Positions 11,949-19,757 of a DNA stretch of 64,000 nucleotides are shown in pieces. The position numbers were made by a program, and so were the translations under genes. Below the pieces are notes generated by a model that did no database searches, had not been told where the DNA came from, and saw nothing but the letters and a program-made list of their open reading frames with translations. Source of the DNA: Neelides folsomi (Eukaryota; Arthropoda; Collembola; Neelipleona; Neelidae); NCBI GenBank assembly GCA_034687125.1, contig JAQGBZ010000248.1, positions 1 to 64,000 of the forward strand. The letters are read 5' to 3'. How positions within the stretch are numbered: the first letter of the stretch is position 1; every line of letters starts with the position of its first letter.

Positions 11949-14583
11949 ATGAGAGGAATTTTACCTCTTATTCTCTTCGGGTGTCTCGCCATCGTTTTGT
12001 CAACAAGTACAACCGAAGTTTCGGTAATATCAGAAGATGTTCCAGAAGTGACCGAGAAAGAAGAGAAAGAAGTTGAGAACGTGACAGAAATTCCAAGTGG
12101 AGGATCAGACCAATCAGCTCTACCTTCCCCTCTCCATGAAGAAGGCGAAGAGAGCAAACAAACGGAGAAAGTTACAGAGTTCTTTGAAGGAGGACCAAGA
12201 ACCGAAAGATCCGACAATGACACCAGCAACTTGATTTCGGAAGGAACTGGACTAATTGGACATTCATTCCTTCACGGAAATGGACATGCTCATGGATATA
12301 GTAAGTTTAAGACTCAAAAAAGCTTTTGTATAAACTTCTTTAATTTTCCATGGTATTTAGCTAGAGATTCAACTCCCTGTTCCTTTCTAAATATGTGGAA
12401 GTTAAAGGTTTTTAAAGCTTGCATATTTTCTGAGTAGCTCCTGCTCCAGTTTACGGGCATCAACACAATAATTATCATCATGCTCCGGATCATAAACCAC
12501 TTAAGGCTTCTGTTGTTCATCGGGATCCTTATGCTCATTACAACCCGTATGATGCAGTTAGGACTCAGGACTATGATAATAAACATCATCCACATACTTC
12601 AAAGGTATAGCAAAAGAAGCGAAAGATGGATTTTGTCAATTTGATATTTTTATTCTATTTGGATTATCAAACTAATTAAAACATGATTGAGAGTTTGAGA
12701 GGATTAAACAATTTTGCAAAATAGGTTAAATGTAAGTGTTTTTTAAAGATTTCATAGACATAATTACACTATATAATTATATTATATAACTAAGTTTTAA
12801 TTAGTAAATTGTATGTAAATATATTCTAAATATTGGGAGGAATAACCCTACATTACATAGTACCTACTTTGTTTGTTTACAACAGGCGGCAGGCATTGGG
12901 TAATTGATTTATGATATGAAAACGAGAGTTGCGTTTTTTCATTACGCCCTATTGACTTCTAAACTACGATATAATGTTTAATAACTTGTGTTAAAGTTTG
13001 AACAGGAATTACAGGATGGTTTTATGGCTTCCTTAACTAATCTTTTGAAATGTGTGTTTTATTCAAGTACGGGCACGGACAAGGAATTGGGCACGGACAT
13101 GGACACAGTCATGCTCATGGCCATGTAAGTTAAACATAATTCTTCACCCACATGGTTTTGACGCCAAAAATACTAATTATAGTTAATGTTAATAAATTGT
13201 TAATTGCTATAAAATTTAAATACTGATGAGATTACAAGCCCTTGTGGTATTGATTAGAATTCATCTGAAAAAATTGATTCGTATTGGAAAATGTATCATA
13301 TTTCTACTGTGTGTAGTATTACATTTAATTTAATGATTTCATTTCGTAATTTTTATAATGTAAAAGGAACATGGACACGGACACGGGCATGGCCACGGGC
13401 ATTATCAACCTTACCATTACGATATGCACAAAGTGCCTGAGTGCGCTCATAAGAATCGTTACTATTACAATCTCACTTTCTGCTTAGAAGATCACTACTA
13501 TCCCAGGTACATTTAATTATTATTAAAATTACAGTATTAATAGCATGCTTAATTTGATACACGTTTTCATCATTTTAAGCTTTAATTATATATGTACTAT
13601 ATTCAAAATGTCAAAAATCTATTATAGTAATAATGTCATAAAATGATTTTTTTGCTAGTGAGACGATTGCTTGGGCCATCAGACAATCCGGGCATTATGC
13701 TCATAAACTTCTTAGCGACGTAACTTATCAATCCGCCGATAATTTGGTCGATGGACTTACAAGAGCCCAAGAAGAAGGATACAATTATCAACACTACTTT
13801 GGACAAACCCACGAGAAGCATCTTCATTTGGATAAATACAAACCTCCATACGCGTAGGGAAAATGTTTTAATTTTTATAAATTTCACTAAAATCACAATA
13901 CACATTTATTGTAATACAGAATGTATAGCATTCGATATATGAGAGTGAGAATAATTTGTTACAAAAATGTATTTTTTATTGTTATTTATATAGAGGATAT
14001 TCGTACTCCAGCGATTATTACAAAAGAGGTGGATATATTTGTCCGTCTGATATCTACTACGCCAGGCCACGACGAGCAATGAATACTTTTGGAAAATGGA
14101 AAGTAATTGTCAATTTAGATTATGCTCCCAAAGGTCACCATGAACATGGGCATGGACACGGGCATGATCATGGGCATGGCGCATATGGCCATGGGCTTGG
14201 GCATGGTCATGGTCATGGACATGGACACCATGACTATCATCCAGCGTATACCCAAACGCTTCGCCTAGAACAGTGCATGTAAGATCTTTAAATTAATTTT
14301 AATGATTTTAACTTAAACCTCTACTAAAATATGCTTGTTTAGATATGCCAACGCTCCATGCAGCTACATTGATTCTCACGTCTATTCCCGTTGTCTCCAA
14401 AAGCACAACTTCGTGAGACTTGTTGCTTGGACCTACGATGAAGGCCTTCATGTTGATACTTTCAAAATGCCAATTGCTTGTTCTTGTCACATTCAAGAAG
14501 TGAAACATGTGCTAACATCTCTCCATCATCATATTACGCCTGCTCATCATCATTCTCCTCATTATGCTCACGGGAAGAAATGA
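11949..14583 (+). CDS. Spatzle-like cytokine with His-Gly-rich insertions
   Basis: Seven exons (11949-12300, 12438-12604, 13068-13124, 13367-13506, 13659-13853, 13994-14278, 14343-14583) join in frame to 478 residues. The start MRGILPLILFGCLAIVLS is a signal peptide. An acidic Ser/Thr/Glu-rich pro-region follows (about 20-110), then a His-rich stretch and a first HGHG block (about 174-205). Next come an ECAHK/TFCLEDHYYP segment and a cystine-knot domain (about 318-455): ICPSDIYYARPRRA, GKWKVIVNLD, YTQTLRLEQC, CSYIDS, RCLQKHNF, GLHVDTFKMPIACSCHI. These motifs match the Spatzle family, closest by eye to the Spz3/Spz4 type. The family consists of secreted, proteolytically activated Toll-receptor ligands in immunity and neural development. 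Unusually, a His-Gly-rich run (about 348-388) interrupts the knot between VNLD and YTQTLRLEQC. Subtype and metal binding are inference; family membership is strong. Confidence 0.88.
13068..13430 (+). repeat. His-Gly coding repeat, block 1 (split by an intron)
   Basis: Exon 3 and the first part of exon 4 both encode alternating His and Gly from GGACAT/GGACAC/GGGCAC hexamers. The 242-bp intron between them (13125-13366) is ordinary AT-rich sequence. The pattern suggests expansion by hexamer slippage. Confidence 0.7.
14136..14243 (+). repeat. His-Gly coding repeat, block 2 (inside cystine knot)
   Basis: About 100 nt of imperfect CATGGACACGGG-type hexamers encode a run of about 17 His interleaved with Gly, plus an AYGHGLGHG interruption. 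Codons alternate CAT and CAC, so the repeat is not perfect at DNA level, which argues that the protein pattern is maintained and not newly slipped. Confidence 0.75.
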
Positions 14584-16550: not shown

Positions 16551-17071
16551 ATCGATGTTATTTGAGGGAATTTAATATAAATATTAAATAAATACACTTG
16601 AGGTACCTTTATTTAAACCCAGTTTAAATAAAAATGAAAAGTAATTTATAATTTTAAAGAAAATCGTAATTCATATAACTTTCAATCAATTTTGAATTGT
16701 CAATTGAGTGTTCGCAGATTTGAGACTATTACACGTGTGATGGTTTGACTTTGCTCGGCTAGATTGTGTTACACTAAATAAGAAAACATTTTTCTCCATA
16801 TTTAAATAAAATAAATAAATAAAATAAATAAATAAAATATAAAAAAAATTAATTAAACAATAACGATAATTATACACAATAATTCAAATGTCTTGCCGTA
16901 TGCTTATATTAAAGAATTTTAAAATATTATTGAACAGATCTGCAAAAAACAAGTATAGTGAATTTTATAATAAATTTTTAATACTGTAAAGAAAATTATA
17001 TTATTACAACAAATGTAAATATTAACAATTTTTTTTAAATTTTAGCATGCTGCCTTAATCATAGTTGACTA
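16551..17071. other. Divergent intergenic region GET4 / zinc-finger gene
   Basis: AT-rich 521 bp with an imperfect AAATA tandem repeat at 16803-16837. It should contain both promoters. No TATA box at an obvious distance was found. Confidence 0.5.
16803..16837. repeat. AAATA microsatellite
   Basis: Seven or so imperfect AAATA/AAAT units in tandem, within the GET4/zinc-finger intergenic DNA. Confidence 0.8.
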
Positions 17072-19757
17072 ATGATCATGGAAGACAAAATTGATTCCGA
17101 AATCACTTGCTTGATTGAAATAGAAAATAATTTAAGTGAAGCAGATGCACAAGCAATTGAAAAGGGAATTTCATTTGTGACTTTGGAAGATCAAAATCGA
17201 GATTTTATTGGAGACAAAAATGTGAAGTTTATTTTAAAACCTGATGATTCTGGACAAACAGAAGTTAGAGAAGTCGGGCCTGGAGAGTCAAGTCATTTTG
17301 AAGTTCTTATAATCGGTGGTAAAAATGGAACTTCTCCGCGATTCTTGTATAATGAAAATCTTTGTCGGATTTGTCTCCTCAACAAAGCGGATCTCATCCA
17401 ATTGTTCAGAGATGCGGTGTTCGGATCAACAGGAATGATTGAAAACCAAAGGGGACCGAGTGCGTCAAATAAATTCAACATAATTGCAGCTATCAATACC
17501 TTCCTCGATGTTAAAGTAAGATACCTATTATTTAAATATTGTATTCGGATATAATAAATTATAAACGAGGTTGATACTTTAATACTGTGGGTTTTTTATT
17601 TTTGGGAGTACTATTGTAATCATTTGTTTGGAATTTACAGATAGAATACAACGATGGCCTTCCTAACAAAATTTGTATAGAGTGTCTCGATAGCATATTG
17701 AATTTTTCTTTATTTAGGAAAAGAATTGGAATTGGACAAGGGAAGCTAATTAATTTTCTTAAGCAGGTAAATAACAGTATTAACTCCTCTAATAAATAAC
17801 CAATGTTATAAATTATATCAATTAAAAAAACGATGTGGAATAAATTAAAAATATTAGACGGAAAAATCATCATTGGCTATGATTCCTTCATTGGGAGAAA
17901 TAAATATGAATAACACGCAAATCTTGAAACACACCGAATTGATAATAAAGGCACAGGAAATGATGGAACATTCTCAATATTCTCATCTTGTGAAGAGAAA
18001 TTTATCAAATGCGGTAAATCAATTTTTTATTTAATTTGAATACTTAATTTAGCAGAAATGTTCTCACTCATTTGTTTGAGATATACATTTATGTATAATT
18101 TCATAATTTTTCTTAATGTTTTAATAGACTTGGGAGAAAATTTTGATCGAAATTGGAGCAATGGTTGGATTCAAGTCTGGAAAACTTAAAATGATGGAAA
18201 AATATTGCGTCGACTCTCCATATGTCAAGGGATTTCTTTGTTACACATGCAATATTATCATTCATGGTATTTATCTAATAATTTTATTTCCTAATCGTAT
18301 AAATACATAATGCTTATATAGCTATAGTTGTAAATATCATAGCTAAAATTCTAAATTTGTGTATCTCTTTATTAGGTGACAAAAATAATTTTATGCAGCA
18401 TTATATTGATGTTCATGGAATCTCTTCAGAAGACATTCAATTCCCTTGCGATATTTGCGGAGAAAGCTTTTTTAATCATGATCCCTCTGGCCTCAAACAA
18501 GATTATGCCGCCCATTGGACAAGACATTTCTTTTTCTTCAAGTATGTAAACATATTAAATATATTATTCAAGATTTTAATTAATAAGCATTCATTACTGA
18601 TTGATGATGGAAAATGAATAAGAAATTACTGTACGTTTACAGATGTTTAGAATGTGAAAAAAAATTTCCAAGCCTAAAGGGCTTATGGGTTCATAGTAAA
18701 TCTGCTCATACACAAGGGAACAGGATTTTTAATTGTGACATTTGCGGAAAATCTTTTGGAAAGAAAACTCATCTTACCTCACACGTAAAGACACATCTCA
18801 ATGCTGAAGAGAGAAAAAAGGAACTGAATTATTGTCATATTTGTGGGAAAGGGTAAGATTCTAAGATTCCATATACGTATTACAAATCTATCAAATCAAA
18901 TATTTAATATCTATTTGATTATAGCACTTTAATTAAATAATTTAATTCTTTTAATATAGACTGTGCGGCAGTTTATCTAGTCATATGATTCTCCATTCTG
19001 ACAAATATCTGAAATGTGACATCTGTTTCAAGACTTTCAAAAGAAAAGAAGTTCTCATCACTCACAGGGACACAGTGCATTACAACATCAAGAAATTCAA
19101 ATGCGAAATATGTGGCGAAATGCTAAGGAGTCATTCAGCAAAAGCTGTCCATGTATCGAGACACAAAGGAGAAAAACCCCACTCCTGTTCTGTTTGTTCT
19201 AAAAAGTAAAAGTTTACTTATTAATCGAATTCGAAATGAATGTATTAATTTCATTTTTCGTTAATAGGTATTATTCTGCTACAGCTTTAAAAAGTCATAT
19301 GGTTAAACATTCCGATATGCCAGAATTTTCTTGTGAGATCTGTGCGAAGAAATTTAAACGAAAAGTGTATTTAAACGTAAGAGAAGATTATGTCAATTGT
19401 AATGTAATCATTTTACATTAAATTCAAAACAAATTGTTAACTAATGTACATTGTATTATGTAGGAACATTTCAAAGTTCATTCCGGTGAAAAACCACACC
19501 AGGTAAAACTCGAACCGAACTAATATTTTTAGAGATAATACAAATAAACATCACAACATTACTTAAAATTTTATTCGAATGTTTGAATCCAATTTCAGTG
19601 CGGGAAGTGCGGAAAATGGTTTCGAATGAAATCAAATTTATTTAAACACTTCAAAGTTCATAAAAGAAAGGAAGGAATAAGTGAAGCGGCTGAAGCTGCT
19701 GCAGCTGTTGACACTGATATTCAATTAGCTATTGGAGATGAAATTCAATTGCAGTAA
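17072..19757 (+). CDS. ZAD-domain C2H2 zinc-finger protein
   Basis: Multi-exon gene starting MIMEDKIDSEITCLIEIENN. An acidic N-terminus is followed by a ZAD domain: LCRICLLNKADLIQLF (first Cys pair), a linker, then NKICIECLDSILNF (second pair). A linker of about 100 residues leads to some ten C2H2 fingers, among them CDICGKSFGKKTHLTSHVKTH, CDICFKTFKRKEVLITHRDTVH and CEICAKKFKRKVYLNEHFKVH, with TGEKP-like linkers (KGEKPHSC, SGEKPHQC). The tail is Ala/Glu-rich and ends at TAA 19755-19757. ZAD-ZNFs are DNA-binding, ZAD-dimerising nuclear regulators greatly expanded in insects. No one-to-one orthologue can be named. The finger at about residues 330-350 (FNHDPSGLKQDYAAHWTRH) has irregular spacing and may not bind DNA. 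Confidence 0.88.

Follow-up and report, generated by a model that had tools for sequence, protein, structure and literature searches.

A histidine-glycine insert in the Trp-loop of a predicted Spätzle-family ligand from Neelides folsomi

The cystine-knot domain of a Spätzle-family protein encoded in the genome of the collembolan Neelides folsomi contains an insert of 41-42 residues, of which 16 are His and 13 are Gly (aa 347-388; positions 14121-14246). Positions are those of the window, i.e. the whole stretch of 64,000 nucleotides that was analysed (contig JAQGBZ010000248.1 of assembly GCA_034687125.1, forward strand). Judged by alignment, the insert belongs to the flexible Trp-loop and immediately precedes the residue equivalent to Tyr-38 of Aedes Spz1C. 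We tentatively propose that it is a functional metal- or pH-responsive loop in a Spätzle-family ligand, a reading to which we assign a probability of roughly 40%.

Results

Seven exons on the forward strand (11949-14583), separated by GT-AG introns of 64-463 nt, join into a single uninterrupted frame of 478 aa that includes 67 His. This bears out the retained frame claimed in a preliminary description of the same DNA, and the interval given there, 13994..14583, corresponds exactly to exons 6 and 7 of the spliced model. Exon 1 (11949-12300, donor GTAAGT) encodes an N-terminal hydrophobic segment that by inspection resembles a signal peptide, as well as an acidic pro-region, and ends in HGNGHAHGY. 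In the spliced frame, exon 2 (12438-12604) encodes His-rich pro-region, exon 3 (13068-13124) the first half of a pro-region HG block (aa 174-192), exon 4 (13367-13506) the second half of this block (aa 193-204) and a pro-region Cys pair, with a TRF repeat of period 6 at 13369-13398, and exon 5 (13659-13853) further pro-region. The second HGHG block that had been claimed for the pro-region is thus present (aa 174-204); at the DNA level (13068-13506) it is interrupted by intron 3, with HG repeats flanking the intron on both sides. Exon 6 (13994-14278) encodes a KR dibasic site (14022-14027), Cys I (14040-14042), the Trp, the strand VIVN, the His-Gly insert, the strand TQTLRLEQ and Cys II (14274-14276), while exon 7 (14343-14583, stop included) encodes Cys III-VI and a His-rich tail. 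The features pointing to secretion and cleavage were seen by eye and consist of the hydrophobic N-terminus and the KR pair at aa 314-315, just N-terminal of the knot domain. A furin-like motif, RPRR, is also found in exon 6, inside the first knot strand and C-terminal to Cys I.

To assign the protein to a family we relied on both sequence profiles and solved structures. A Pfam search (E 0.1) returned Spaetzle as the sole family, in two stretches, with an E-value of 2.8e-18 and 66.8 bits against a cut-off of 27 bits, and the match in the exon 7 region (PF16077) covers aa 388-449. A phmmer search against solved structures (E up to 1) gave seven matches, with Drosophila Spätzle in third (3e07, E 0.042) and fifth place (4bv4, E 0.11). 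None of the remaining five is a Spätzle, and for those ranked 1, 2 and 4 the displayed alignments cover His/Gly-rich or tag-like stretches. A profile of the Spätzle knots of this genome matched 4bv4, 3e07 and Aedes Spz1C at E-values from 2.5e-17 to 4.2e-14, with 4.1e-14 for Spz1C, the next matches being coagulogen and neurotrophins. All six knot cysteines in the correct order, together with the flanking strand motifs, could be recognised in the alignments with solved structures and paralogues, in agreement with what had been claimed, and the spacing from Cys I to the Trp equals that of Drosophila Spätzle (3e07). The Pfam score and these alignments support the proposed Spätzle identity, and by homology the gene product is a genuine Spätzle-family cystine-knot protein, probably made as a secreted proprotein.

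The phmmer alignment to 3e07 consists of two pieces, query 318-346 against chain 8-36 and query 388-462 against chain 37-113, and the insert falls between the adjacent residues 36 and 37 of the structure (VNND and EYKQ, respectively). Since the piece before the insert, taken alone, has a score of only -0.6 bits, its left edge rests also on the paralogue alignments, in which the gap opens directly after the V-N strand or, in one alignment, two residues further. The size of the block, estimated earlier at about 40 residues with about 17 His, was measured as 42 residues with 16 His. The preliminary description had also placed the block in a turn of the knot: comparison with solved Spätzle and with seven paralogous loci puts it inside the knot and not outside, but the site is not a plain turn, being instead the Trp-loop beside a receptor-contact residue. 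The His-Gly pattern is more than chance would produce: when the residues of the mature domain were shuffled, the observed number of 11 HG dipeptides was reached in 2 of 20000 shuffles. A stretch of 42 residues with as many as 16 His arose in 96 of 20000, being less rare because the mature domain is His-rich throughout (29/163).

The Toll5A-Spz1C paper describes a flexible Trp-loop that spans His-18 to Gln-40 of Spz1C, and a contact between Tyr-38 of Spz1C and Tyr-56 of Toll5A (PMC9427763). Numbering according to 7b1b by profile alignment (Cys at 10) gives Gln-14, Leu-16, His-18, Trp-31, Tyr-38 and Gln-40, which matches the residues named in that description, and the insert is situated just before the Tyr-38 equivalent. 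The numbering and the kept Trp spacing together indicate that the block lengthens the Trp-loop at its C-terminal end and adjoins the receptor contact; its placement relative to a bound receptor is something that we infer. An AlphaFold2 model of exon 6 alone (94 residues, five paralogue rows) has a mean pLDDT of 57.7 and a pTM of 0.31, and as a low-confidence model of half a domain it bears on loop topology only. Strands are predicted for aa 322-333, 339-344 and 391-396; the block, which separates the second of these from the third, forms an unstructured coil with ten-residue mean pLDDT values of 44-49 over most of its length. The His-Gly loop is, in other words, predicted to be disordered.

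Exon 7 carries an Ala at the position of the conserved interchain Cys (IACSC; KMPIACSC compared to PSCCKC). Aedes Cys-94, which by 7b1b numbering is the first Cys of the CC.C motif, is described as forming the central interchain bond and is said to be conserved in Drosophila (PMC9427763), and an extra Cys next to Cys V is given by Wilson 2009 for Spz1 and Spz2 (PMC2772990). Ala at this position precludes the usual covalent dimerisation through this disulphide. The interchain Cys is also absent at the paralogous loci C34 and C476, both of which nevertheless score above the PF16077 cut-off; the loss is therefore not unique to the present gene, and the Cys is not required for family membership.

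The genome (75.1 Mb, 840 contigs) was scanned for further Spätzle genes, and PF16077 was found in at least 10 places at at least 8 loci, the present gene included. The His-Gly insert is missing from all seven further Spätzle loci, as judged from a comparison in which C476 stood outside one alignment and which, for C77 and C247, began at the strand preceding the site. The closest paralogue, C19 (45% identity over the knot), lacks the insert and reads VVNYAENTQTLRLEKC; in contrast to the present gene it retains CC.C and has an extra intron late in the knot. The low-complexity pro-region of C19 is Pro/Arg-rich, whereas that of the present gene is His/Gly-rich, and by eye both pro-regions have a similar segment in which a Cys pair precedes DYP/HYYP. 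In C19 (L045, 3206-3547, minus strand) the Pro/Arg-rich tract precedes this similar Cys-containing motif, at the place where the present gene has its His-Gly tract. The sole other protein-level match over the HG part, considered as a possible paralogue with the same insert (C32:29258-29533), was a methyltransferase-like ORF and not a Spätzle.

A phase-2 intron right after Cys II is common to C19, C34 and C77 (three of the seven other loci) and is absent there in the other four, and the shared position and phase support the boundary between exons 6 and 7. A characteristic Spätzle knot intron is mentioned in PMC8296651, and the intron at Cys II may correspond to it. At the Spätzle-like locus C476 (L051:2899-3336), a single open frame carries a long insert that separates Cys IV from Cys V; this insert differs from the present one in occupying another loop and in not being His-Gly. 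Arthropod Spz6 is reported by Wilson 2009 to be longer in the knot region than other Spz (PMC2772990), and the C476 insert is perhaps this lengthened knot. Scans for orthologues with exon 7 as query (79 aa) were made in two collections that are not meant for animals, and yielded 45 pattern matches in genome_contigs and 6 in viral_contigs, of which 0 were confirmed in either.

The subfamily label Spz3/4, which the preliminary description had used, is not supported by the one published Cys criterion that was applied. For Spz3, Wilson 2009 reports an additional Cys located after Cys III and before Cys IV (PMC2772990), and none is present in CSYIDSHVYSRC of the present protein. A tree of ten knots contained no strongly supported fork.

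The preliminary description had raised a cryptic intron within exon 6, by which the block would be spliced out to leave a mature protein without the HG loop. Splice sites were scored against 15 introns, six from this gene and nine, read by eye, from a neighbouring zinc-finger gene; all 15 donors begin with GTA. The zinc-finger gene lies downstream (17069-19757) and has at least nine short introns, of which the nine donors read are all GTA-initial. Eight in-frame pairs were listed in total, the search being confined to in-frame pairs. The pair that would excise the block cleanly (14134-14244) scores -4.1/-2.0, whereas even the weakest of the real donors reaches 0.4 and the weakest acceptor -1.7, and clean excision is thus unlikely. 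A usable in-frame GT-AG pair does exist at 14103-14273 (171 nt), with scores of 6.1/3.1 that are within the range of the 15 real introns, but its removal would also delete both flanking strands, VIVN and TQTLRLEQ, the counterparts of which are retained in the paralogues. Moreover, the GC content of the block is 55%, compared to 19-30% in the six introns of the gene. On balance we consider it very unlikely that the block is spliced out.

At the DNA level the insert is an imperfect CATGGN hexanucleotide array that has grown in frame, and TRF reports a period of 6, 12.8 copies and a 74% match at 14145-14224. Such an array may simply have expanded through slippage, its site being a flexible loop that tolerates it, with no metal or pH role, and we regard this neutral low-complexity expansion as a substantial possibility, second to a functional loop. 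The pattern of differences between the units speaks against it. With two thirds of the differences from the consensus hexamer expected at codon positions 1-2, the ratio between positions 1-2 and position 3 was 2:8 in exon 6 (P 0.003) and 3:11 in exons 3-4 (P 0.0007), for analyst-chosen hexamer units that leave out a single unpaired GCA of exon 6 as well as the end codons outside pairs. The ratio became 4:10 (P 0.004) when the irregular units TAT GGC and CAT GAA were added in exon 6, and 6:16 (P 0.0002) when the four leading units of exon 3 were added in exons 3-4. It should be underlined that these P values are optimistic, since slippage makes the units non-independent. Third codon positions hold most of the differences, and the counts thus go part of the way to showing that it is the peptide rather than the DNA that selection appears to keep. 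The Gly codons of the block are used near-evenly (5 GGG, 3 GGT, 3 GGA and 2 GGC), which indicates that the array is not fresh, and the site borders a receptor-contact residue; neither point favours a neutral origin. Tandem repeats are also prone to misassembly, and the block might then be an assembly error or the gene a pseudogene. This is the least probable of the explanations considered here, given the intact frame over seven exons, the canonical splice sites, the kept cysteines and the wobble-biased variation.

The genome was further searched with a codon pattern for (His-Gly)x4, which gave 35 overlapping matches spread over 14 places, of which the present gene accounts for two, while the reversed control gave 0. 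All of the 12 other places have an open frame bearing HGHGHG. Pfam was run on 10 of these 12 loci, with one frame each, and identified one chitin-binding cuticle protein (PF00379, 54.8 bits), one methyltransferase-like ORF and one sub-threshold DUF4794, whereas seven gave no family. In the methyltransferase-like ORF (C32; L052:2642-3082, minus strand) the (HG)n tract is near the N-terminus. The tracts at 12 other places weaken the case for a special role of the one in the Trp-loop, and the loop may reflect lineage-wide low-complexity drift; the seven ORFs with no Pfam family likewise suit neutral expansion, as does the different long insert of C476 between Cys IV and V, which suggests that knot loops accept insertions. 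Another interpretation is that the loop mainly anchors or stores the ligand in matrix or cuticle, as a depot released by cleavage, acidification or wounding. The chitin-binding protein among the 10 scanned ORFs, together with several more that look cuticle-repeat-like by eye, is consistent with such retention, and so are the HG-rich pro-region and the His-rich C-terminal tail of the same ligand. However, seven of the ten ORFs have no family at E 0.01, so the description cuticle-like rests on appearance, and one tract is in the methyltransferase-like ORF, which is not evidently extracellular. We therefore consider retention in matrix or cuticle a rather unlikely main function.

The same assembly includes a mitochondrial contig of 15157 bp (C742; L065/L066), for which ARAGORN names 21 tRNAs and leaves one match unnamed, with no tRNA-Asn named. 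Its trnL2 is situated between cox1 and cox2, and the gene order is one that we take to be ancestral pancrustacean. Three matches to globins (best E 1.8e-12) were also obtained.

Discussion

If the His-Gly block is a functional metal- or pH-responsive loop, as we tentatively favour, its origin and action could be pictured as follows. A CATGGN repeat would have expanded in frame to give a disordered loop of about 42 residues inside the Trp-loop of the knot, and this loop would constitute an exposed multi-imidazole tether adjoining the Toll-contact surface. Clustered imidazoles are likely to bind metals and protons in vitro. The loop might bind Zn(II), Cu(II) or Ni(II) and take up protons at a pH of about 6-6.5. 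In concert with the pro-region HG block and the His-rich tail, it could alter the place in which the ligand is retained (extracellular matrix or cuticle, or a complex with the pro-domain) as well as the ease with which the Trp-loop gains access to the receptor, and Toll activation would thereby come to depend on local metal or pH. A more elaborate version is a gated Toll ligand, in which the His-Gly blocks of the Trp-loop and the pro-domain share metal and clamp the pro-domain or a partner protomer, in the latter case replacing the lost interchain disulphide, and in which the Toll signal is switched on only when the metal is withdrawn or the site acidifies; this version we regard as a long shot.

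A search of exon 6 against NCBIfam gave a single match, to a Co/Ni efflux family, which was not significant (E 0.49; 9.7 bits against 250), and no His-rich Spätzle was found among the literature matches listed by title and start of the abstract, in which spellings with an umlaut are unsearchable. Should the loop be functional, the protein would represent a natural Toll ligand with a metal or proton sensor in its receptor-binding loop, through which metal or acidity in the environment would feed into innate immune or developmental signals. The alignments also suggest that the Trp-loop, which is flexible and contacts Toll, is able to accommodate about 40 additional residues while the rest of the knot stays intact.

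Both proposed properties have counterparts in other proteins, which serve as precedents by analogy and not as evidence. The histidine-rich squid beak proteins (HBP-1) have GHG repeats, disorder and a His-based pH switch in common with the loop, as described in PMC6884462. They differ in being structural proteins, the coacervation of which needs Tyr-bearing GHGLY repeats, at least two with a spacer or four in tandem according to the same source; no GHGLY motif occurs in the 478 aa of the present protein, which thus falls short of this mark. In the N-terminal peptide of BDNF, Zn is reported to be bound by His (PMC9732821). BDNF and NGF have a related cystine-knot ligand fold, and their metal sites are described as isolated N-terminal His rather than an inserted HG loop. 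For added residues inside the C-106 domain, the arthropod Spz6 with its lengthened knot provides a precedent (PMC2772990). Finally, the present protein has the cystine-knot domain, the six knot cysteines, the Trp of the Trp-loop and the strand motifs V-N and Y.Q..(I/L)E.C in common with Drosophila Spätzle C-106 (3e07, 4bv4) and Aedes Spz1C (7b1b, 7b1c), and it differs from both in the His-Gly insert before the Tyr-38 equivalent and in the replacement of the interchain Cys by Ala.
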